Part shown: positions 8,242-39,840 of the stretch, piece by piece
How positions within the stretch are numbered: position 1 is the stretch's first letter
How the letters are laid out: every line of letters begins with the position of its first letter
From: Deltaproteobacteria bacterium
GTDB taxonomy: Bacteria; Desulfobacterota; Binatia; UBA9968; JAJDTQ01
Assembly (NCBI GenBank): GCA_026712905.1
Contig: JAPOPM010000199.1
Coordinates: 1 to 64,000 of the forward strand
Length of the DNA stretch: 64,000 bases
Reading direction: 5' to 3'
The notes under the pieces: generated by a model
Told to the model about the DNA's origin: nothing
Database searches by the model: none
The model's input: the letters and a program-made list of their open reading frames with translations, nothing else
Program-made: the position numbers and the translations under genes

Positions 8242-10643
8242 GATGGTTCGGCGCGGGCCTTTTCTATTTCGGTCCACACCCGTTCGGGCGTGAGCGGGAG
8301 ATGGTCGAAGGTGCAGCCCAGCGGCGCCAGCGCGTTCTCCACCGCATTGCAGATGGCCGCGGGCGCGGGAATGGCGCCGCCCTCCCCCACTCCCTTCATT
8401 CCCAGAGGCGTATACGGCGACGGCGTCACCAGGTGGTCCATGCGCACGTCGGGGATCTCCACCGCGGTGGGCTTCAGGTAGTCCACGAAGGTCGTCGCTT
8501 TCAGGTTCCCCTGCTCGTCGTAGTCGAACTCCTCGAACAGCGCCGCGCCGATGCCGTGGGCGGTGGCGCCCTGCACCAGCCCTTCCACGATGGCCGGGTT
8601 CAGCACAATGCCGCAGTCGTGCACCACGCCGTACTTGAGGATCGCGACCCCGCCGGTGTCCGGGTCCACTTCGACGATGACCCCGTGGGCGGCGTTGCTG
8701 GCGAAGAGCTGGTTGCGCACGCGGCGGTTCTCGTCGGGGACGTTGGCGAGGTCGGAGCTGTAGTAGAATCGACCCTCCAGGCCCGGCTCCATCCCGCGCG
8801 GCAGCGACAGCAGGTCGCGGTAGGCCACGAAGGCCAGCTCCGCCAGAGTCTTGCGATGCTCGTGGCGGTCGCGGGCGCGCACGCCCCCCTCGGCCAGCTC
8901 CAGGTTCTCCACCGGCTCCTGCAGCAGGTACGCCGCCAACTCCAGAAGCTTGTCGCGGACCTTGTGCGCGGCCCCGAGGATGGCGCCCACGTCGGTGCCG
9001 GCGAACTTGTTGGAGTAGTTGCCGGTGGCGTAGAGCCAGGGCGTCACCGCGGAGTCGAAGAACGGCGACACGCGCACGCCGTCCATGGCGACCCCCAGCT
9101 CGTCGGCGACGATCTGCGCCGCGGCGGTCTCGTGCCCCTGGCCGCTGCCCACGTCCCCCAGGAGCACCAGGATGCTGCCGTCGTGCTCCACCCGCACCAT
9201 GGCCGCCTCGGCCGAGCCCGAGGCGCTGCGCCGGCCGGACGAGAGCATGTAGGCCGACTGGTTGGAGGTGCTCGGCTCCAGCCCGATGGCGATGCCGATG
9301 CCGAGGTAGCGTCCCCGGGCGCGGGCCTCACGCTGTTCCTGGAGAAAGTCCTGGTAGTCGATGAGCGGCAGCAGCTTGTCGAGGGTGCCGCCGAAGTCGC
9401 CGCTGTCGATGAGCGCGCCGCTGGGGCCGGTGTAGGGCATGGCGTCGGGCGGCACCAGGTTCCTGCGCCGCAGCTCGATGGGGTCCATGCCGAGCTGCCG
9501 CGCCAGGTAGTCCATCATCCGTTCCATGGCCAGGCACATGAACGGCTTGCCGATGCCCCGGTTGGCGCCCGACGGGCACTTGTTGGTCATCACCGAGTTG
9601 ACCTCGTAGCGCACCACCGGGATGCGGTAGCAGTTGGTCAGGTTGCCGAGCTTGAGGATCGAATGCACCGTGGGATTGAGGACGTTGGCGCCCTCGTCCG
9701 CGATGTCGCGCACCCTCATGCCGAGGATGCGGCCTTCCTCGTCCAGCGCCGTTTCCAGGTCCATGACGCCGTTGCACGCGTGGATCAGCGCCATGAGGTT
9801 CTCGCGCCGGTCCTCCAGGTAGTGCACCGGCTTGCCCCCGCTCAGCTTGGACAGAAGCGCCGCGATGATCAGGTAGTGGGCCTTGCGCTTGTTGCCGAAG
9901 CCGCCGCCCACGTCCGGCGTGACGAAACGGATCTGCGCATGGGTCAGGCCCAGGCTGTGGGCCACGATGGGCATGGCCTGGCCCGGGCGCTGGTCGTTGG
10001 ACCAGACGGTGAGCTGTTCCCGGTGGTCGTCATAGACCGCGGTGCAGCCGAAGGTCTCGAGCGCCGTGGACGAGTAGCGCTGGATGTAGAAGCGCTTCTT
10101 GAAGACGTGGGCCGCGCGCGCGAAGGCCGCATCCGTGTCGCCGTAGTCGAAGCGGTCTTGCCACATGACGTTGGTGCCCATGGACTCGAAAAGCAGCGGC
10201 GCGTCCGGCTCCATGGCCGCCTCGGGGTCCACCGCCGCGGGCAGGGGCTCGTACTCCACCCGGATCTTCTCCAGCGCGTCCTCGGCCAGGTAGCGGCTGG
10301 TAGCCAGGATGGCGGCCACCGGCTCGCCCACGTGGGTGACCTTGCCGAAGGCCAGGCAGTAGGCGTCGAGGGCCACCGGAATGGGGATGAGGGAGCGCAG
10401 CGGCTTGGTCATGCGCCCCACGTCCTCGCCGGTGAGGCCGCACACCACCCCGGGCATGGCCAACGCCTCGCTCAGGTCCACGTTCACGATGCGCGCGTGC
10501 GCGTGCACGCTCCGCAGCAACGCGACGTGCAGCGTGTCCGGGAACTTCATGTCGTCGATGTAGGTGCCCCGGCCGGTGGAGAACCGCAGGTCCTCTCTCA
10601 GCCGGACCGGGCGGCCCTTCCATTGGGTGGATGAAGGTTGCAT
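8238..10643 (-). CDS. Molybdopterin-binding large subunit of a xanthine dehydrogenase/CoxL-family hydroxylase
   Basis: 801 residues. The N-terminal a/b hammerhead begins RPVRLREDLRFSTGRGTYIDD. The molybdopterin domain follows with PDVGGGFGNK at 243-252, the pocket segment NKCPSGANRGIGKP at 354-367, and GSGQGHETAAAQ and GVGEGGAIPAP further on. True CO dehydrogenases carry AYRCSFR in the pocket; this has ANRGIGKP, so it is a form II or related enzyme that hydroxylates an unknown N-heterocycle or aldehyde. It is the last gene of CoxM-CoxS-CoxL type (12023 to 8238), 4 bases from the 2Fe-2S subunit. The stop codon is provided by a GGGGCGACC repeat. Confidence 0.92.
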   Translation of the reverse strand: MQPSSTQWKGRPVRLREDLRFSTGRGTYIDDMKFPDTLHVALLRSVHAHARIVNVDLSEALAMPGVVCGLTGEDVGRMTKPLRSLIPIPVALDAYCLAFGKVTHVGEPVAAILATSRYLAEDALEKIRVEYEPLPAAVDPEAAMEPDAPLLFESMGTNVMWQDRFDYGDTDAAFARAAHVFKKRFYIQRYSSTALETFGCTAVYDDHREQLTVWSNDQRPGQAMPIVAHSLGLTHAQIRFVTPDVGGGFGNKRKAHYLIIAALLSKLSGGKPVHYLEDRRENLMALIHACNGVMDLETALDEEGRILGMRVRDIADEGANVLNPTVHSILKLGNLTNCYRIPVVRYEVNSVMTNKCPSGANRGIGKPFMCLAMERMMDYLARQLGMDPIELRRRNLVPPDAMPYTGPSGALIDSGDFGGTLDKLLPLIDYQDFLQEQREARARGRYLGIGIAIGLEPSTSNQSAYMLSSGRRSASGSAEAAMVRVEHDGSILVLLGDVGSGQGHETAAAQIVADELGVAMDGVRVSPFFDSAVTPWLYATGNYSNKFAGTDVGAILGAAHKVRDKLLELAAYLLQEPVENLELAEGGVRARDRHEHRKTLAELAFVAYRDLLSLPRGMEPGLEGRFYYSSDLANVPDENRRVRNQLFASNAAHGVIVEVDPDTGGVAILKYGVVHDCGIVLNPAIVEGLVQGATAHGIGAALFEEFDYDEQGNLKATTFVDYLKPTAVEIPDVRMDHLVTPSPYTPLGMKGVGEGGAIPAPAAICNAVENALAPLGCTFDHLPLTPERVWTEIEKARAEPS

Positions 10644-30347: not shown

Positions 30348-32942
30348 TCAGAACACCCAGCGCCAGCCGCCGAGGAATGTGACCTCGGGGTCGGCGCCCC
30401 TGCGGTGGCCCGGGCGGTGGCTGTACACCGCACCCAGGCGAAGCTCGCCCTTGGGCAGCGGCCGGAGCCACTCGCCGGAGAAGTCCATCTGCCGCCCGCT
30501 GGGCGCCAGGCCGGCCGACAGTGCGTCGTACGACACCGCTCCCGCCTTGGTGCGGCTCACGGGCACGGTCATCGATGCCCGGCCGCGCTCCACGCGCAGC
30601 GGTTGCGACACGGAGAAGCGCACCGCGCCGGCTCCCGCCAACGCCCGGCTCGCGTGCAGGGCGAACGCGCTGGTGGCCAGCGACGACACCCCGTCCACGA
30701 AGCCCCCGCGCGCATCCGGCACGACGATCCCCACCTCCGCGTTGGCGCCGATGCGCCATCCGCCCAGGTCCGTGCGCGCGTCCACTCCCAGGAAGGACGT
30801 GTCCGCCGCGAGGCCGCCGAAGCCGCCTTCGCCCACGCTCCCCAGAAGCGTCTTGGGCTCGCCGATCCACCCCGCACGCACGCCCCACGGCGACCCCACG
30901 CGCCGCCAGCTCAGTGCCGCTCCCAACGTGGGCCGCTGCCCCGGCAGCCCCTTGGTGGTGAACGCGGCCGCCGACACGCCTCCCCGCGCCGCCAGGGTGG
31001 CCTGCACCGCCCCCTCGGCCAGCGACATGTGGCTCCCCAGGACATCCGACGACGCCTCCAGGCGCGTGGCGTGGACACTCAAGGCCGCCATCTCTCCGCC
31101 CGGGCCGGCTTGCGCGCCCCCGTGAACGGACTCATCCGCTTCCGCGTACGCCGACACACCCGCGGACTCCTCGCCCGCGCCCCTGTCCGTGCGCCCACGC
31201 ACCTGCGTGGTGACGCTCTCTCCGCCCACCCGCGACGGGTCCTCCGCCAGGAAACTCCGCAGCCGCGCCGCCACCGACGGCCCGCCGGCGGTTCCGGTGA
31301 AGTCCCCCAGCCGGTACCAGAATGGCGCTCCCAGTCGGTCCACCGCCATCACCTCCCGTGACCCCAGCGACCGGCGCAGACCGTCGCCGAAGGCCGTCCC
31401 CGGGCTGATGGACGTGGACAGGAGCCGGAAGCCGTTGGCGCCCACGCTCGTCCCCACCGGCACCTCCAGGACGCCCACCGGCGAGGTCGCCGCGCCCAGG
31501 TCCATCGAACCTCGGCCGTAGATGGCCGGGTCGGCGTAGAACCCGCTCCGGTCGGCGGTATCGAACAGCCGGGCCACCAGGTCCGTGTTCGACAACTGGT
31601 CCCGGAAGAGCTGCTTCATGATGGCGAGCCCGCCCGACACCATGGGGGCGGCGAAGGATGTCCCTCGGAGATTCGCGTAGTCCCGGCTTGAGAAACGGGG
31701 ACTTATGTTGCCGAAATAGGCGCTACGGATTGCCTCGCCAGGAGCGGCGATGCAGAAGTCCGCGGCGATACCGCAGCGATTGGAGAAGGACGCGATCCGC
31801 CCGTCGTTGGGACTCAACGCCACCACCGCGACGGAATGGCCCTGCAACTCTTCGATGCGCGCCGGAATGCCCGGATTGATGTCGACGGAAACCGCGTTGA
31901 GCGCGTCGCGCGGGCAGAACTCCACCGTCGCGGAATCGCACGCGTCTCCGTGCGAGTTTCCCGCCGCCCACACGAGGATGACCTTTTCCTCGGAATCCGC
32001 CTGCGCCAGGGCGGCGAGGGTCGTCGCATAGTTGTCGCGCAGATCCTCCTCGGTGTAGCCGTCGATCAGACCCTGGTAGCCGAAGCTCAGGTTCAGGATG
32101 TCCACCTTCCGGTCGCCGTCCCGCCACGAGAACACCTGCCCGTACAGCGCGGCGTCCTCGGCGTCCACGGTGGGCAGAGCCTCCACCGGCACCGGCCTGT
32201 AAACGCCGTCGCCCGACCCCAGGGTGAGGGCGAACACGGCAAGGTCAGCGCCCCAGGCCACGCCGTGGTGACCGATTTCCGAATCGGTCCGTGCCCCCGC
32301 CGCCACGCTCGCCACCGCCGTGCCGTGAGACAGGAGGCCGGCCTCGGACAGGGTCTCGTCGATCGCGCCGGGCGTGAATTCCTCGGTGACCTTCCTGTTG
32401 TCGTTGCCCGCGATCGACGGGTGCTCCAGGTCGATGCCCGTGTCCAGGACGCCAATGGTCACCCCGGCGCCGGGCTCGACGTCCGGCCCCATCAGCACGC
32501 TCAGGTTGCCGTAGGCCTCGTCCGCGTTGATGTGGGTCAGTCCCCACTGGTTCCAAAACCCCGTGTGCTCCCGGGACTCCTCGGCGGCAGCTTCCGCGGC
32601 CTCGTTGAATTGCTCCAACTCGACGCAGTCGCCGTCGTGGACGGCGACGCACGGCTCCGACGGTAGCGCGGGACTGCCGACCACGCCGCAGCCGGCGAGA
32701 GCAACCGGCAGAAGAAGGACGAGCAGTAAGACTTTCCAGGCTGTGACAAAACTCCCGAGGCAACGATCCCCCGAAGAGTCATTCCCGCGAAGGCGGGAAT
32801 CCAGGGGTGGCGAGGCGGGGAAACGCCCCTGCAGTGCCCCACCCCCACCACCCCTGGATTCCCGCTTTCGCGGGAATGACGTTCCGTAGGGTCCTTGCTT
32901 CATGAGTCTTGACACAGCCTGAATCGCGGGATGACGTGACAT
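30348..32942 (-). CDS. Subtilase autotransporter (NalP-like lipoprotein protease), intact triad, 5' end fused to a repeat
   Basis: S8 protease passenger plus C-terminal beta-barrel ending GGWRWVF. The catalytic residues are Asp in GVLDTGIDLEHP (codon 32442-32444), His in SHGTAVASVAAG (32325-32327), oxyanion Asn in WAAGNSHGD and Ser in GTSFAAPM (31656-31658). A lipoprotein signal (VLLLVLLLPVALAGCG) precedes them, as in its paralogue at 32987. Here the region coding for the start has been replaced by a 102-bp repeat read in frame, so the signal would be internal by about 60 residues. The start at 32942 is only the longest plausible ATG, without ribosome site; the real start is uncertain and the gene may be poorly expressed. 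Confidence 0.75.
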   Translation of the reverse strand: MSRHPAIQAVSRLMKQGPYGTSFPRKRESRGGGGGALQGRFPASPPLDSRLRGNDSSGDRCLGSFVTAWKVLLLVLLLPVALAGCGVVGSPALPSEPCVAVHDGDCVELEQFNEAAEAAAEESREHTGFWNQWGLTHINADEAYGNLSVLMGPDVEPGAGVTIGVLDTGIDLEHPSIAGNDNRKVTEEFTPGAIDETLSEAGLLSHGTAVASVAAGARTDSEIGHHGVAWGADLAVFALTLGSGDGVYRPVPVEALPTVDAEDAALYGQVFSWRDGDRKVDILNLSFGYQGLIDGYTEEDLRDNYATTLAALAQADSEEKVILVWAAGNSHGDACDSATVEFCPRDALNAVSVDINPGIPARIEELQGHSVAVVALSPNDGRIASFSNRCGIAADFCIAAPGEAIRSAYFGNISPRFSSRDYANLRGTSFAAPMVSGGLAIMKQLFRDQLSNTDLVARLFDTADRSGFYADPAIYGRGSMDLGAATSPVGVLEVPVGTSVGANGFRLLSTSISPGTAFGDGLRRSLGSREVMAVDRLGAPFWYRLGDFTGTAGGPSVAARLRSFLAEDPSRVGGESVTTQVRGRTDRGAGEESAGVSAYAEADESVHGGAQAGPGGEMAALSVHATRLEASSDVLGSHMSLAEGAVQATLAARGGVSAAAFTTKGLPGQRPTLGAALSWRRVGSPWGVRAGWIGEPKTLLGSVGEGGFGGLAADTSFLGVDARTDLGGWRIGANAEVGIVVPDARGGFVDGVSSLATSAFALHASRALAGAGAVRFSVSQPLRVERGRASMTVPVSRTKAGAVSYDALSAGLAPSGRQMDFSGEWLRPLPKGELRLGAVYSHRPGHRRGADPEVTFLGGWRWVF
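32777..32881. repeat. 102-bp-family inverted-repeat element at the 5' end of the subtilase gene
   Basis: Complementary arms (GTCATTCCCGCGAAGGCGGG and its partner) around a core with GAAACGCCCCTGCAGTGCCC. It lies just upstream of the lipoprotein signal codons and is read in the subtilase frame (SFPRKRESRGG ... PPLDSRLRGND). Confidence 0.85.
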
Positions 32943-32986
32943 GGTGAAACCTGTGAGCGAGTTGTGTGTAAGCATGATCCCCTGGT

Positions 32987-35350
32987 TCAGAATGCCCAGC
33001 GCCAGCCGCCGAGGAAGGTCAGCTCGGGCCTGGCGTCCTTGCGGTGGCCCGGACGGTGGCTGTACACCCCACCCAGGCGAAGCTCCCCGTTCGCCAGCGG
33101 CCGGCGCCATTCGCCGGAGAAGTCCATCTGCCGGCCGCTGGGCGAAAGGCCCGCCGACAGCGGCTCATACGACACCGCCCCCGCCGTCGTCCGGCTCACC
33201 GGCACCGTCAAGGACGCTCGCCCACGCTCCACGCGCAGCGGCTGCGACACCGAAAAACGCACCGCCCCGGCCCCCGCCAGCGCCCGGCCGGCGTGCAGCG
33301 CGAACGCGCTGGTGGCCAGCGACGACACCCGGTCCACCCATCCTCCGCCCACGTCCGGCACCACGATCCCAAGCTCCGCGCTGGCGCCGAGCCGCCACCC
33401 GCCCAAGTCCGTGTGCGCGTCCACGCCCAGGAAAGAAGTGTCCGCCCGCAAGCCGCCGAAAGCGCCTTCGCCCACGCTCCCCAGGAGCGTCTTGGGCTCA
33501 CCGATCCAGCCCGCCCGCAGCCCCAGCGGCGACCCTGCCCGCCGCCAGCTCAGCGCCGCTCCCACCGTGGGCCGCTGCCCCGGTTGCCCCTTGGTGGTGA
33601 ACGCCGCCGCGGACACACCGCTCCGCGCCGCCAGGGTGGCTTGCACCGCACCCTCGGCCAGCGACATGTGGCTGCCCCGGACCTCGGACGACGGCCGCAG
33701 GCGAGCGGCGTACAGAGTGATCGGCGCCGTGTCCCCCGCCGGGCCGGCTCCTTCCCGCGCCGTGTGGAGAGGCTCCACCGTGCCGGCCTCTCCCCTTGAC
33801 GCCGCAACGTTGCCCGTGCGGCTCGCCCACGCCGGGTCGGGCACCAGGAAGCCCCGCAGCCGTGCCGTTACCGACGGCCCGCCCCCGGCATCGGTGAAGT
33901 CTCCCAGGCGGTACCAGAACGGCGCTCCCATGCGATCCACCGCCATCACTTCCCGCGACGCGAGAGACCGCTGCAGACCATCCCCGAGGGCCGTTCCCGG
34001 GCTGATGGACGTCGAAGAGAGCCGGAAGCCGTTCGCTCCGACGCTCGGTTCCACCGGCACTTCCAGCACGCCCACCGGCGAGGTCGCGGCACCCAGGTCC
34101 ATCAAGCCCCGCCCGTAGAACGCACGGTCCGCGTAGATGCCGCTGTCGTCGGCGGTCTCCAGCAGCCGGGTCACCAGGTCCGTGTTGGACAACTGGCCAC
34201 GAAAGACCTGCTTCATCACGGCCAACCCGCCGGATACCATGGCCGTGGCAAATCCGTTCCCCGAACTGACCGTGTAGGCCCGAACGGCCTGTCCCCGAGA
34301 GGGTCCGAAATAGGCGAACCGCATGCTCATCGCCGGCGCCGCGATGCAATAGTCGGCGGCAATGCCGCAACGATTCGAAAACCGTGCCAACCCTCCGTCG
34401 GCCTGGTTCACTCCCACCACGGCGACGGAATGGCCTCGCAACTCCTCGATGAGCGCGGCGAGCCCGCCCAACACATTGGGCGAAACCGCGTTCAGGAAAC
34501 CGTACCGGCAGTTGTCCGTCACCGACGGAGCGCACTCACGTCCATGGCTGCTGCCCGCCGACCATACGAGGATGGCCTTCTCCTCGGAGTCCGCCTGCGC
34601 CAGGGCGGCGATGGTGCGGCCGTAGTTGTCCCGGAGATCCTGTTCGGTGTAACCTTCAATCACACCCGACATGACCAGGCTCAGGTCCAGGATGTCCACC
34701 CTGCGGTCGCCGTCCCGCCAGGACAGCGCCTCCTCGTACTGGGCAGCATGCCTCGGGTCCGCCGACGCCAGACGCTCGAGCGATCTGGGCTCGTAGGGGC
34801 CGCTGACCGTGGAAGTGGGGACGGCGAACATGGCGATGTCGGCGCCCCAGCCAACGCCGTGGCTGGAGATCCCCTGGTAGGGGTCTCCTTCAACGAGGCG
34901 GCTGCCCGCGGCGATGCTCGCCACCGCCGTACCTAACGAAAAGGCCTCCTCGCCGGTCTCGTCCGCCGCGTCGTCCAGGAATGTTTCCGTGACGGCTTTG
35001 TTTCCGGAGAACGCCGGGTGGTCGAGGTCGATGCCGGTGTTCAGGAACCCGATCGTCACCCCGGCGCCGGGTTCGGCGTCGGGACCCTCGACAACGTTCA
35101 GGTTGCCGTAGGCCGCGTCCGCCTTGATGTAGCCGAGCCCCCACTGGTTCTCATAGCCCGGATGCTCGCGGGACTCCTCGGCCGCCGCTGCCGCGGCCTC
35201 CTGGAATTCCTCCGGCTGGACGCAGCCGTCGTGGACGGGGAGGCATTCCTCCGGAGCCAGACGGGGATTGTCGCCGATGACGCCGCAGCCGGCGAGGACG
35301 AACAACAGGAACAGGGCGATGGGGAGGGTGAATGCCGCGACTCGTGCCAT
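32987..35350 (-). CDS. Catalytically dead subtilase autotransporter (lipoprotein)
   Basis: 787 residues, paralogue of the protease at 30348 along the whole length. The lipoprotein signal is MARVAAFTLPIALFLLFVLA followed by lipobox Cys22. The protease domain keeps its fold motifs, but Asp is Asn104 (GFLNTGID), His is Leu139 (FSLGTAVAS), the oxyanion Asn is Ser267 (WSAGSSHG) and Ser is Gly366 (SSGNGFATAM). The C-terminal barrel ends GGWRWAF with the terminal Phe expected of an outer-membrane beta-barrel. The frame is intact with no decay, so loss of activity looks selected or tolerated without loss of the protein. Possible roles: binding partner, decoy or chaperone of the active paralogue. Confidence 0.88.
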   Translation of the reverse strand: MARVAAFTLPIALFLLFVLAGCGVIGDNPRLAPEECLPVHDGCVQPEEFQEAAAAAAEESREHPGYENQWGLGYIKADAAYGNLNVVEGPDAEPGAGVTIGFLNTGIDLDHPAFSGNKAVTETFLDDAADETGEEAFSLGTAVASIAAGSRLVEGDPYQGISSHGVGWGADIAMFAVPTSTVSGPYEPRSLERLASADPRHAAQYEEALSWRDGDRRVDILDLSLVMSGVIEGYTEQDLRDNYGRTIAALAQADSEEKAILVWSAGSSHGRECAPSVTDNCRYGFLNAVSPNVLGGLAALIEELRGHSVAVVGVNQADGGLARFSNRCGIAADYCIAAPAMSMRFAYFGPSRGQAVRAYTVSSGNGFATAMVSGGLAVMKQVFRGQLSNTDLVTRLLETADDSGIYADRAFYGRGLMDLGAATSPVGVLEVPVEPSVGANGFRLSSTSISPGTALGDGLQRSLASREVMAVDRMGAPFWYRLGDFTDAGGGPSVTARLRGFLVPDPAWASRTGNVAASRGEAGTVEPLHTAREGAGPAGDTAPITLYAARLRPSSEVRGSHMSLAEGAVQATLAARSGVSAAAFTTKGQPGQRPTVGAALSWRRAGSPLGLRAGWIGEPKTLLGSVGEGAFGGLRADTSFLGVDAHTDLGGWRLGASAELGIVVPDVGGGWVDRVSSLATSAFALHAGRALAGAGAVRFSVSQPLRVERGRASLTVPVSRTTAGAVSYEPLSAGLSPSGRQMDFSGEWRRPLANGELRLGGVYSHRPGHRKDARPELTFLGGWRWAF

Positions 35351-35425: not shown

Positions 35426-35530
35426 TCAGAACGCCCGGCGCCAGCCGCCGAGGAAGGTCCACTCCGGGCCGGCGTCCCCGCGGTGGCCGGGCCGGTGGCT
35501 GTAAACCGCGCCCAGGCGAAGCTCGCCGTG
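35426..35530 (-). pseudogene. C-terminal remnant of a third subtilase autotransporter
   Basis: Translates as GELRLGAVYSHRPGHRGD then EWTFLGGWRRAF and stop, matching the last 34 residues of both intact paralogues. Upstream of it the frame gives unrelated residues, and the 3' end of the MEKHLA gene begins 7 bases away. A third copy was deleted down to its barrel tail. Confidence 0.8.
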
Positions 35531-35537
35531 CGAGCGG

Positions 35538-36002
35538 TCACGGCTCTTCGCCGATACCTGCTCCCAGGGCCGTCCACCGCGAGAAAGCCGCGGCCTGGCC
35601 CCGTCTGGCGCCACCCTCGTCCAGGACATTCCATACGGTGGCCTGCTCCACCAGGAAACGCCGGCCCGTCCGCGAGATGCGCACCCCGCGGTAATCGTCG
35701 ACGAAGCCGTGGGTGGTCACCCGCCCCAGCATTCGCGCCCGCTCCTCCCGGTTCACCGGCTCGGCGGTAAGCCGCGAGGGGGTCGCCGTGAGCTGAGCCC
35801 AGGTCATCTCCCATAGATCCAGGGCCCGGCGGTTGCCGTAGTTGAGGATGGGATCGTCGGAGTCGAGGTGGGACACCACCACGAAGGGCGCGGAGAAGAG
35901 CCGGTCGCTCTGGGCCTGGATGTCGCCGCTACGGTCGATGAGCTCCCGCCTCAGCCACAAGGCGTAGCTGTCCAGCAGCCAGCGGATCCAGTCAAGGTCC
36001 AT
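35538..36002 (-). CDS. MEKHLA-domain (PAS-like) protein
   Basis: 154 residues, nearly all MEKHLA domain: WLLDSYALWLRRELI, APFVVVSHLDSDDPILNYGN, RRALDLWEMTWAQL, PSRLTAEPVNREERARML, DYRGVRISRTGRRFLVEQ and ATVWNVLDEGGARRGQAAAF are all recognisable. The domain is PAS-like and in plants sits at the end of HD-ZIP III factors; bacterial stand-alone copies have no known function. I chose the ATG at 36002; an earlier ATG would add 14 residues. It lies directly before the autotransporter remnant and after the Slam-like gene, all on one strand. Confidence 0.85.
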   Translation of the reverse strand: MDLDWIRWLLDSYALWLRRELIDRSGDIQAQSDRLFSAPFVVVSHLDSDDPILNYGNRRALDLWEMTWAQLTATPSRLTAEPVNREERARMLGRVTTHGFVDDYRGVRISRTGRRFLVEQATVWNVLDEGGARRGQAAAFSRWTALGAGIGEEP

Positions 36003-36052: not shown

Positions 36053-37417
36053 CTAAAACTGTCTCACCACACGCAACTCGCCGCCGGTTTTCTTGTAGTC
36101 GTAGAGTTGGGCGTTGGTGGTGCGGCCTTCGTGTACTACCGACACCTCGGGGCTGAAGCCGAAGAGAGTGAGAGCACGATTGAGAACCGAGGCGCGCACG
36201 TTGTACGTCTTGTCTTCCCGGGGCACGCCGTCAGGCGTATTGGGAGACCAATCGCCTTCGTAGTCCGTCCACCGATGGCCGCCGCCCGCGCCCACCGTAA
36301 AACCCCAAGGGAGGGCTACCGACACCCCGGCCTGGAGCCAGGTGCTCCGGTTACGGAACTTGGGGTTCAGCGGCCGGTCGCGCCCGTATCCGCCGGTGGC
36401 ATCGAATCGCACCGTAGGGGTGACCACCCATCCCGCGTTGAGCGAGAAGTTCCGGACCGGACCGTCCAGCGTTTTGCGCGTGCGGTACCGCCGGTCGTGC
36501 CACGACGACCTGCCGTTGAGCGTAAGCCGGCGGGTGAACCGGTGCTTCACGGTGAGTCTCGCGCCCAAGTCGAAGTAGTCGGGCTCGTTGGCGCTCCACC
36601 GATGACGCCAATTGCCGAGCACGCTGAACTCCGTCCTCTCCGTGGCCAGGACGCGCGGTCCGGCATGCCACGACACGAGCATCTGGTCGAATTTCCCGCC
36701 CGAGTATTCCCGGCGCGAACCGTCCACGCCCAGGCGGAGCCCAAGCCGGTTCGCCAACCGATGTTGGTACTCGCCGCCGCCCCAGATCGAAAGCCCGACC
36801 CCCGAAGTGGTCAGCGACTCGGCATCACGGCGGAACGGCAGTCCGAAGATGTAGATGACTCTCTCGTTGGATGTGCCCCCGATATTGGTGTCGGGCGCCA
36901 CCGCAAAGCCCATGTGCAGGTTCCAGCCCCGGCGGCGCCGGATCTGGGCAAGGAAGCGGCCCACGTTGGCTACCACCGGTGGCGGCGGGTTGCCGGCTAG
37001 AACTCGCTCGAAATGCTGCCGGGCCAGGCCATCCTCGCCCTTGAGAAAAAACGCCCGCGCCAGCTCCAGCCGCGCGCGGACCAAACCCGGACGGTTGATG
37101 AGCATGGTACGGAAAGAAACGATGGCCTCGTCGAGCAACGCATTTCGGGCCTTTTCGGCGATGCCCGGGCGCTGCGATTCCGCGCCCGCCGCCATGCCGA
37201 TGAGAAACAGCAGATCCATGCGCCCCGGATTGGCCCGCGACAGCGGACGAAGGACATCCAGCGCCGCTTGAAACTGCCCGCTCTTGAGTAGCGTGCGCAC
37301 CTCCGCAACGTCTTCCGCGACCGAAGGAGCCGGCGCCTGGGCGGTCCCGCCCTCAGGCACGGCAACCATGAATACAGCGATCGCCACCAATGCACCGCAC
37401 ACGGATCTCAGGGTCAT
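36053..37417 (-). CDS. Slam-like outer-membrane protein (TPR plus beta-barrel)
   Basis: 454 residues. A signal peptide occupies residues 1-27 (ends GGTAQA). TPR-like helices at about 35-150 (LLKSGQFQAALDVLRPLSRA, ARLELARAFFLKGEDGLARQ) precede an outer-membrane beta-barrel from about 165 to the C-terminal VVRQF, with many alternating aromatic strands. This architecture is that of surface lipoprotein assembly modulators (Slam, DUF560), which move lipoproteins to the cell surface. The adjacent upstream gene encodes a candidate client lipoprotein. AAAGGTG precedes the ATG. A hairpin with a T-run sits 24 bases before the start, so expression may be attenuated. Confidence 0.8.
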   Translation of the reverse strand: MTLRSVCGALVAIAVFMVAVPEGGTAQAPAPSVAEDVAEVRTLLKSGQFQAALDVLRPLSRANPGRMDLLFLIGMAAGAESQRPGIAEKARNALLDEAIVSFRTMLINRPGLVRARLELARAFFLKGEDGLARQHFERVLAGNPPPPVVANVGRFLAQIRRRRGWNLHMGFAVAPDTNIGGTSNERVIYIFGLPFRRDAESLTTSGVGLSIWGGGEYQHRLANRLGLRLGVDGSRREYSGGKFDQMLVSWHAGPRVLATERTEFSVLGNWRHRWSANEPDYFDLGARLTVKHRFTRRLTLNGRSSWHDRRYRTRKTLDGPVRNFSLNAGWVVTPTVRFDATGGYGRDRPLNPKFRNRSTWLQAGVSVALPWGFTVGAGGGHRWTDYEGDWSPNTPDGVPREDKTYNVRASVLNRALTLFGFSPEVSVVHEGRTTNAQLYDYKKTGGELRVVRQF

Positions 37418-37556: not shown

Positions 37557-39773
37557 CTACTTATCACGCTTGTCGAGAGTCGCCCCGAACGCACCTCTAA
37601 CGTGCCCGTGGGAAGAATGGGCATCAAACCTACCGGCCACCGAGCCGGGGTGCATGTCCTGCGCGGCAGCGCCGGCCGCCGGATTACCGAAGAACTGACC
37701 CTCCCAGTCTCCTGTCGTCACCGGAGAGCCGCCCACCGAACCGCCCATCCCGCCGTCGCGGTTTACGTCGGTCTGTCCGTCACCGGTGAACATATCCATG
37801 TTGGACAAATTCTGGATCCCGATGGCCCCGAGCGTGAGACTGAACCCTGCCATGTCATTTCCATCCTCGTCCTGGAATCCGTCGATCGTTCCGTCTATCT
37901 GCTGTGCCCTGTTGGCGGCGATATCACCGCCGCCGAAGCGCGCCGTCAAGGTGGCGCTCGCCGTGAACTCGCCATGCTCAAGAGAGTCAAGGGTCGCGTT
38001 CGCGTTGTAAGTCTTCTTCGCGTACCTGCCGGCTGCCGGACCTTTGTACGTCGCGGAGCCTTCCAAGCCGCTCAACCCGCTGTTGTTGTACTCTTCCTCG
38101 CCGCCATAAAAGGTGCGGAAGCTCACGGCGCCGGTGTCCTTGTTCACCGTCGTCCACCATCCAAACCGCAGATAGTCTTCGTCAGCCACCCTCACGTTGG
38201 GCACGGCAAGGTCGTCTGTCCTGGTAGCCGCCGCCGTCTCGTTATCGGCGGGGTCGGACACGTTATCGGGCCCGAGGAAGTCGGGGGTGAAGGTCCACTC
38301 TCCCTCTATCGCACTGATCGTTGGATCCGCGCCATCTGTCCCTGCAACAACTGCAATAGAGCACGTGTCGCCGGTGCAGGTGAAGTCGCCCGGTACGCCG
38401 TCCCACATGCCCGCAAACGCACGAGGATTAACTGCGTCATCCGCGATGTAAGTGGTGGTCTGGGCCGCCATATCAGGGAATGACGGTGAAGCCGCAAGCA
38501 TCCTGAACAGCGGGAGCTGTTCTGCGGTCGTCACGAGGGTCAGCACGCCGTTGGTCACGGTAGAAATGGCGGCAGAGTCCGCGGCTGTGTGGACGTCGGT
38601 GAACTTCTCCATCGTGTCCTGGATGTTCGTATAGACCGTCGCGGTCTGGTTGCTGTCGTCTGCCTTCACGATATCGGCTTTAAACCATCCGTTGCCGACG
38701 CTGGTGGCGGTCACATCCTTCCCGATGGTGGTGTCGTCCGTTGTGGCCTCGGTGGGGGTCGCGTTGTCGTCTCTCGTCGCCGTGACCTTAACATTGGTTC
38801 CGTCGTGCTTCGCCGACGCATAACCCGGTGCCATAGACTCACCGTCGTCGCCGCCCAGGCGCATCGCGTAGGGCATGGCCTCCTTGGCCGTGTTGGCTTG
38901 CATCAGCTCGTAGTTGGCGGCGGCGACTGCTGTTTGGGCGGCGGTTACCGCTACCTGCGCCCGCGCCATCTCAACAGCGGTCCCATTCGCGGCCGCGGCC
39001 GCGGCCGCATTGGCCGCCGTCATCGCCTCGTTGGCCTTGGAGACCAATTCCTCAGCGTCGTCCACGTCCGTGTCCTGCGTACCGTATGCGATCAAGAGGG
39101 TGTCGAATGCCGCCTTGGCGACGGTATAGGCAGTATAGGTGGCGTTGGATTGCATAGTAGCCAACGCGAGGGCCAAAGCAGCTTCCGCCGCTTCCTTGTC
39201 CGCAATGGCCTGGTCACGCTCCGCCTCCGCCATCATCGCACGCGTTTCCGCGGCTGTCGCCTCCGCTACCGCCGTATCCCTTGCCGTGTTGGCAGCATCC
39301 CGCTCCGTCTCCGCCACCATCTTGGCGGCTTCCGCGGCTGCCGCAGCCGCTACCGCCATATCCCTTGCCGTGTTGGCAGCATCCCGCTCCCCTTCAGCCA
39401 AACCTTGGGCGGCTTTCGCGGCGGTCTCCGCCTCCTCCGCCGCCATCTGGGCGGCTTCCGCGGTGGCCTGCGCCGCCTCCGCCGCCATCTGGGCGGCTTC
39501 CGCGGTGGCCTGCGCCGCCTCCGCCATCATCTGGGCAGTGTTGGCAGCGTCCCGCTGTGTCTCCGCCGCCATCTGGGCGGCTTCCGCGGCAGCCCGGGCA
39601 GTGTTGGCAGCGTCCCGCTCCATCTCCGCCTGAGCTTGAGCCGCCAGCGCGGCGTTCCTTGCTTCTATGGCCTCGTCCCGGTCGTTCTTTATCCCGGAAT
39701 TAGACGAACAGCCATACAGCCCTGCCAAAACCATGGCAGCCGCCAAGGCCATCACAATTTTACGATTCAACAT
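37557..39773 (-). CDS. Alanine-rich coiled-coil surface lipoprotein, candidate Slam client
   Basis: 738 residues from the ATG at 39773 with AAGGAGGA upstream. Residues 1-22 are a lipoprotein signal (VLAGLYGC, lipid on Cys22). Residues about 30-215 are an Ala-rich coiled coil of seven- or eleven-residue units such as AAEAAQATAEAAQMAAE and ERDAANTAR, likely a long stalk. A Thr/Asp-rich middle follows. The C-terminus (GEFTASATLTARFGGGDIAA, GRFDAHSSHGHVRGAFGATL) resembles the TbpB-like 8-strand barrel that ends many Slam-dependent lipoproteins, where GAFGA is typical. The ligand is unknown. The gene is followed by a terminator and then the Slam-like gene. Confidence 0.78.
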   Translation of the reverse strand: MLNRKIVMALAAAMVLAGLYGCSSNSGIKNDRDEAIEARNAALAAQAQAEMERDAANTARAAAEAAQMAAETQRDAANTAQMMAEAAQATAEAAQMAAEAAQATAEAAQMAAEEAETAAKAAQGLAEGERDAANTARDMAVAAAAAAEAAKMVAETERDAANTARDTAVAEATAAETRAMMAEAERDQAIADKEAAEAALALALATMQSNATYTAYTVAKAAFDTLLIAYGTQDTDVDDAEELVSKANEAMTAANAAAAAAANGTAVEMARAQVAVTAAQTAVAAANYELMQANTAKEAMPYAMRLGGDDGESMAPGYASAKHDGTNVKVTATRDDNATPTEATTDDTTIGKDVTATSVGNGWFKADIVKADDSNQTATVYTNIQDTMEKFTDVHTAADSAAISTVTNGVLTLVTTAEQLPLFRMLAASPSFPDMAAQTTTYIADDAVNPRAFAGMWDGVPGDFTCTGDTCSIAVVAGTDGADPTISAIEGEWTFTPDFLGPDNVSDPADNETAAATRTDDLAVPNVRVADEDYLRFGWWTTVNKDTGAVSFRTFYGGEEEYNNSGLSGLEGSATYKGPAAGRYAKKTYNANATLDSLEHGEFTASATLTARFGGGDIAANRAQQIDGTIDGFQDEDGNDMAGFSLTLGAIGIQNLSNMDMFTGDGQTDVNRDGGMGGSVGGSPVTTGDWEGQFFGNPAAGAAAQDMHPGSVAGRFDAHSSHGHVRGAFGATLDKRDK

Positions 39774-39787
39774 TCCCTGTTCCTCCT

Positions 39788-39840
39788 TACCGTTTGAAGA
39801 GCCCAAGCTTACCGTTTAAGCCGCCCCAAGTTTACCGTTT
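39788..39840 (-). promoter_or_regulatory. Three AAACGGTA direct repeats before the lipoprotein gene
   Basis: AAACGGTA (minus strand) at 39788-39795, 39810-39817 and 39833-39840, 22 and 23 bp apart, i.e. two helical turns. The repeats extend to AAACGGTAAGCTTGGG. The last copy runs into the ribosome site. It fits a tandem operator; a short VNTR in the leader is the alternative. In the rest of the 39774-40163 gap I see only an imperfect 40-bp direct repeat (39861 and 39996, sharing CATGGGGAA-like cores). Confidence 0.55.

Follow-up and report, generated by a model that had tools for sequence, protein, structure and literature searches.

The window, by which we mean the whole stretch of 64,000 nucleotides of DNA that was analysed, carries on its minus strand two neighbouring genes for subtilase-like (S8) proteins. 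The gene at 32987-35350 (minus strand), delimited from its open reading frame, Pfam and an AlphaFold2 model, is open over its full length and encodes a pseudoprotease of 787 residues. Its layout comprises a lipoprotein signal, an S8 domain (residues 95-415), a linker (about 505-545) and a predicted outer-membrane barrel (about 569-787). The lipobox is LAGC, and its Cys22 (35285-35287, minus strand) is invariant in all four inactive orthologues. The second gene, at 30348-32975 (minus strand, with its start at 32975 or 32942), encodes a paralogue in which Asp, His, Asn and Ser are intact by open reading frame, Pfam and codons. The two proteins are 67% identical. The Peptidase_S8 match of the paralogue (Pfam, E=3e-38) is stronger than that of the pseudoprotease (E=1e-20), and we call the paralogue active on account of its sequence, which has the four residues of the catalytic set.

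With 11-44 bases from the stop of the inactive gene to the start of the paralogue in the window, the pair is probably a single operon, and the same arrangement is found in two other genomes of the genus (G005 and G006). The order is reversed in a third (G002), where the active copy precedes the inactive one, so a strict operon order is not conserved. The genus was sampled through nine draft MAGs, namely the source genome in 280 contigs and eight others, and four of the nine (the source, G002, G005 and G006) have a tandem pair of one inactive and one active copy at one and the same locus, with MEKHLA and SlipAM as neighbouring genes and, as far as the stretches extend, OadB as well. Every inactive copy has an active neighbour (4/4). 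Upstream of the pair, between the MEKHLA gene and the pseudoprotease, lies the 3' remnant of a third S8 copy (35429-35540, minus strand), which ends in ...TFLGGWRRAF, and a similar 3' remnant is found in G002 upstream of the active copy (L050, about 8700-8770). The remnants in the window and in G002 indicate that members of the array have been lost at this locus, which is a dynamic tandem array. The SlipAM (surface lipoprotein assembly modifier) homologue adjoins a coiled-coil lipoprotein (36053-37417 and 37557-39806 in the window), and the two are perhaps a Slam and its substrate. Presence of the SlipAM gene next to the S8 array is conserved across the genus.

The open reading frame listed for the paralogue begins too early, as the family start, MSRHPAI, lies at 32942 (or MLTHNSL at 32975). 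Between the MSRHPAI start and the signal peptide, the leader is interrupted in frame by a hairpin (MITE-like) repeat of about 100 bp (32779-32880, with no strand assigned; fold z-score -9), which lengthens the leader by about 60 residues ahead of the signal peptide. The hairpin arm (TTCCCGCGAAAGCGGGAATCCAG arms) occurs 326 times in the genome with at most one mismatch. The paralogue leaders of G005 and G006 are free of the repeat at that place, and export of the paralogue in the source genome may be impaired by its lengthened leader. The sequence-only reading had described both frames as intact over their whole length; this holds for the inactive copy, and in the neighbour 'intact' applies to the reading frame alone, given the hairpin repeat in its leader. 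Peptides of the FPRK type were also observed in the passenger-barrel linkers of the inactive copies of G005 and G006 (L049, 7280-9631; L048, 9728-12046). They look like an in-frame translation of the same hairpin repeat, and insertions seem to be tolerated in the linker.

Replacement of the catalytic site and retention of the fold

In the pseudoprotease the catalytic Asp is replaced by Asn104 (AAC, 35039-35041), the catalytic His by Leu139 (TTA, 34934-34936), the oxyanion Asn by Ser267 (AGC, 34550-34552) and the catalytic Ser by Gly366 (GGA, 34253-34255), all on the minus strand, and the neighbour has GAC, CAC, AAC and TCC at the same places. These four residues had been placed exactly in the sequence-only reading, and the Asp, His, Asn and Ser that it gave for the neighbour were confirmed by codon. 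The three orthologues (G002, G005 and G006, in that order) have His, His and His for the Asp, Ser, Tyr and Tyr for the His, Ser, Asp and Glu for the oxyanion Asn, and Gly, Gln and Gln for the Ser. The resulting sets are N-L-S-G in the source genome, H-S-S-G in G002, H-Y-D-Q in G005 and H-Y-E-Q in G006, and the Asp/His/Ser triad with oxyanion Asn of an active S8 peptidase is absent from the pseudoprotease and its three orthologues. Near the S1 pocket, an invariant Gly has also been replaced by Ala340 (APG to APA; 34331-34333, minus strand), a change that is fixed in all four. For two of the replacements, His to Leu (CAC/TTA) and Ser to Gly (TCC/GGA), no base of the codon is shared with the neighbour, which excludes single-base errors as their cause. 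Sequencing error, which had been named beforehand as a way in which the reading might fail, is ruled out, like assembly error, by these two triple-base replacements and by the agreement of four MAGs.

The subtilase fold is still recognizable. The pseudoprotease scores 74.8 bits on PF00082, for which the curated cut-off is 21.8, and this is its sole Pfam match; no prodomain or jelly-roll domain was found by Pfam. An AlphaFold2 model built from an alignment of 30 relatives (mean pLDDT 83) has a confident subtilase domain followed by about 12 long barrel strands. The lipobox and barrel that had been ascribed to this gene from sequence are both there, the latter as predicted structure. The model of the active copy has the same architecture, and among solved structures the pseudoprotease is best matched by the passenger of Ssp, an autotransporter (8E7F). 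The hallmarks of a type Va barrel, which are a C-terminal position, 12 strands and an aromatic end, are seen in the AlphaFold2 model only, where the C-terminal residue is Phe. The Pfam Autotransporter model PF03797 was unmatched by 30 full-length members of the family, and by 10 barrels even at an E-value of 10. Searches of the barrel against all of Pfam and against PDB sequence profiles gave nothing useful, and a fold search against viral proteins gave weak porin-like matches only. Because the barrel matches no Pfam model, 'autotransporter' is used here only in the sense of the architecture and the predicted model.

Conservation within the protease domain was followed at 138 positions, chosen for a conservation of 85% or more among active homologues. 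All four inactive copies keep 106 of them, including the cysteines 273, 281, 328 and 335. Positions lost or partly lost amount to 17 of 31 within windows around the catalytic site and cleft and to 15 of 107 elsewhere (Fisher p=1e-5, or p=3e-4 without the catalytic four), p-values that are indicative since the windows were drawn from subtilisin motifs rather than coordinates and after the lost sites had been seen. The S1-wall positions 222, 224, 226 and 229, together with G340, G364, A368 and P370, are invariant or nearly so in active homologues and lost or variable in the inactive copies. Decay in the inactive copies thus extends to both the S1 wall and the GTSxAAP motif, which makes it unlikely, judged from these residues, that the inactive copy serves to bind peptides through the old cleft.

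Descent and selection

Within the genus, the named relatives are MAGs that bear the label Candidatus Binatia or Deltaproteobacteria, and the four bacteria with an inactive copy are related and marine. The copy in G004 has an intact catalytic set. That in G003, on a short contig, has His, Asn and Ser, and an N-terminal frameshift puts its Asp out of frame. Beyond the genus, the S8 family is found in MAGs labelled Nitrospira, Nitrospinae, Defluviicoccus, Rhodospirillales, Alphaproteobacteria and Gammaproteobacteria, and three of these out-of-genus MAGs were binned from the sponge Aplysina aerophoba (PMC5649159). About 35 other homologues were inspected, including tandem arrays of two or three copies, and all have kept the four residues. 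No inactive copy was found in the genomes of 12 more distant relatives, in which all copies have the catalytic set. Close relatives in other genera are absent from 148 genomes of the class and 297 of the phylum, and this confinement to one genus within the class suggests that the family has spread horizontally.

The protease-domain tree places the four inactive copies in a single clade (support 91), whose sister is the clade of active copies from the genus. Their monophyly indicates that the loss was ancestral rather than a product of sequencing error. As is expected of a true pseudoprotease, the catalytic residues are gone from the whole orthologous group. The tree of the barrel has a different shape, with inactive and active copies intermingled and the two barrels of G002 grouped together. 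Tandem S8 copies in a Defluviicoccus MAG (L043, 2457-4766 and 4829-7159) likewise have near-identical barrels and different passengers. The mixed tree and the barrel pairs of G002 and L043 indicate that gene conversion homogenises the barrels and leaves the passengers to diverge, and constraint on the barrel in part reflects this exchange with active copies.

Selection was measured on the protease domain with a purpose-written codon model of the GY94 type, which was also run with G004 as outgroup. From four orthologues, and with dS partly saturated in distant pairs, maximum likelihood gave an omega of 0.19 in the inactive clade and 0.14 on active branches, and forcing omega of the inactive clade to 1 cost 2dlnL 210. 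With the outgroup, omega was 0.19 in the inactive clade, 0.13 in the background and 0.71 on the stem of the inactive clade, and setting the inactive clade to 1 cost 2dlnL 209. The stem value lies above the rest (p=0.006) and is indistinguishable from 1, and constraint in the inactive clade is slightly weaker than in the active one (p=0.04-0.055). When protease domains are compared between G005 and G006, which are the closest pair, the inactive copies differ by a dN of 0.054 and a dS of 0.19, and the active copies by 0.055 and 0.20. The dN/dS comparison that had been proposed for the inactive copy therefore found purifying selection across four species, and this selection followed the catalytic loss. 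Catalysis was lost, a relaxed or adaptive phase ensued, and new constraint then set in. Relaxed evolution of the whole copy, the other outcome that was to overturn the reading, is contradicted by the rejection of omega=1.

Function of the pseudoprotease

With sequencing error and relaxed evolution both set aside, retention of the copy for a non-catalytic function is well supported at the level of sequence. The suggestion that the fold was kept for binding or regulation survives in this respect (four species, omega 0.19), and is weakened as regards a substrate trap or inhibitor acting through the cleft, which is degraded. The inactive copy is probably a selected, non-catalytic binding protein. 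NalP and SphB1 are surface lipoproteins, and we consider it likely that the protein studied here is a surface lipoprotein of a comparable S8-plus-barrel type, in which a selected pseudoprotease passenger works by binding next to an active copy.

A tandem duplication was followed by loss of the triad and oxyanion Asn from one copy before the species of the genus separated. After a relaxed phase, the inactive copy came again under strong purifying selection, always beside a copy with the catalytic set. Its passenger would be exported as a surface lipoprotein without proteolysis, and would bind a target with some surface outside the former substrate cleft. The likeliest specific version, which draws on the analogy of CspC and CspA in the Csp system of the active CspB, is that the inactive copy modulates (stabilises, localises or restrains) its co-expressed active paralogue or shares its ligands. 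We put this partner role first because the gene pair is conserved, and the reversed order in G002 counts against a strict operon pair. Action through the active paralogue can be proposed only tentatively, and independent ligand binding is about equally probable. In a stronger form, which we hold to be doubtful, the pair would be an obligate heteromeric unit in which, outside the cell, the active passenger is controlled or targeted by the inactive one, the barrels being kept alike by gene conversion as the passengers diverge. Such a unit would be comparable with the Csp system and built on barrel-anchored lipoproteins in marine (sponge-symbiont type) Binatia-like bacteria.

As an independent surface binder, the pseudoprotease would serve as an adhesin or receptor whose ligand comes from a host (sponge) or from the environment, and the tandem arrangement would result merely from duplication. 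This is a serious possibility that falls short of an even chance. The traceable relatives outside the genus come from sponge-symbiont bins, the cleft residues have diverged while the fold was kept, and the gene order in G002 is reversed, all of which fit such a role; however, neither Pfam nor NCBIfam finds an adhesion domain, and an active neighbour always stands beside the inactive copy. The shared fold, adjacent gene and probable co-transcription would also suit a competitive decoy, which would protect or limit the active enzyme by binding substrates or protease inhibitors through a retained cleft, but S1-wall and cleft positions are lost or variable among the inactive copies, an enrichment that persists without the catalytic four. 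A substrate-trap decoy is disfavoured by this decay, and we regard it as improbable. The least probable readings, both to the same degree, are neutral decay and new chemistry. Exchange of barrels by gene conversion and the remnants of a further copy next door might point to a decaying pseudogene of a recently duplicated protease, open by chance or through gene conversion. Against this, the inactivation is older than the divergence of the species, the frames are intact in four genomes, and the low omega given above is that of the protease domain, a part that escapes homogenisation. Neutral decay is rejected by the codon models. Replacement residues such as His-Tyr-Glu/Asp-Gln in G005 and G006 might instead form a catalytic or metal site, as His stands for Asp in three of the four copies and the polar set is common to these two genomes; the four sets differ, however, which makes a site common to all implausible and rules out a new shared active site.

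Comparison with known systems

The closest working analogue in kind is the clostridial pair CspC and CspA beside active CspB. CspC of C. difficile has D105, T170 and G485 at the triad, with His changed to Thr, Ser to Gly and the Asp kept (PMC6636752), and it pairs with CspA in a heterodimer (PMC12880746). Like these proteins, the present one is a pseudoprotease of subtilase fold related to an active family member, and its loss of catalysis is limited to one lineage, with active copies kept in others. CspC and CspA work through binding, as in their heterodimer, whereas binding is only proposed for the present protein. They are soluble proteins of the spore and have a prodomain and a jelly-roll domain, in place of which the present protein has a lipobox and a C-terminal barrel, and it is not a member of the Csp family. 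In addition, CspC has lost two of its three catalytic residues, while here all three and the oxyanion Asn are gone.

The arrangement of a subtilase passenger and a C-terminal barrel is shared with the subtilase autotransporters Ssp (8E7F, PMC9977779), NalP, SphB1 and EprS. In NCBIfam, the EprS model ranks second for the active paralogue, which scores far short of the cut-off of that model. These autotransporters are proteases with a catalytic site, usually with the Pfam Autotransporter barrel, whereas the inactive passenger is without such a site and its barrel matches no Pfam model. A literature search for autotransporter and pseudoprotease together, with few subscription journals covered, returned only a review on another subject. 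What is new here is a pseudo-subtilase in which catalytic loss is complete and extends to the oxyanion Asn, within a lipoprotein whose barrel is autotransporter-like. To our knowledge, bacterial pseudoproteases with evidence of selection after the loss are few, and the clostridial Csp proteins are the standard case. In the present family, a single genus records the whole sequence of duplication, full catalytic loss, relaxed phase and renewed constraint, and the adjacent active sister serves as control. The pair also offers a subtilase lipoprotein of this architecture in which non-catalytic function can be tested, from a family found in sponge-associated lineages. More broadly, the pseudoprotease belongs with the inactive serine protease homologues, a recognised class of which 42 prokaryotic cases were listed in a survey of 91 genomes (PMC2605481); inactivity was inferred there from missing residues, whereas here orthology and constraint after the loss were tested.
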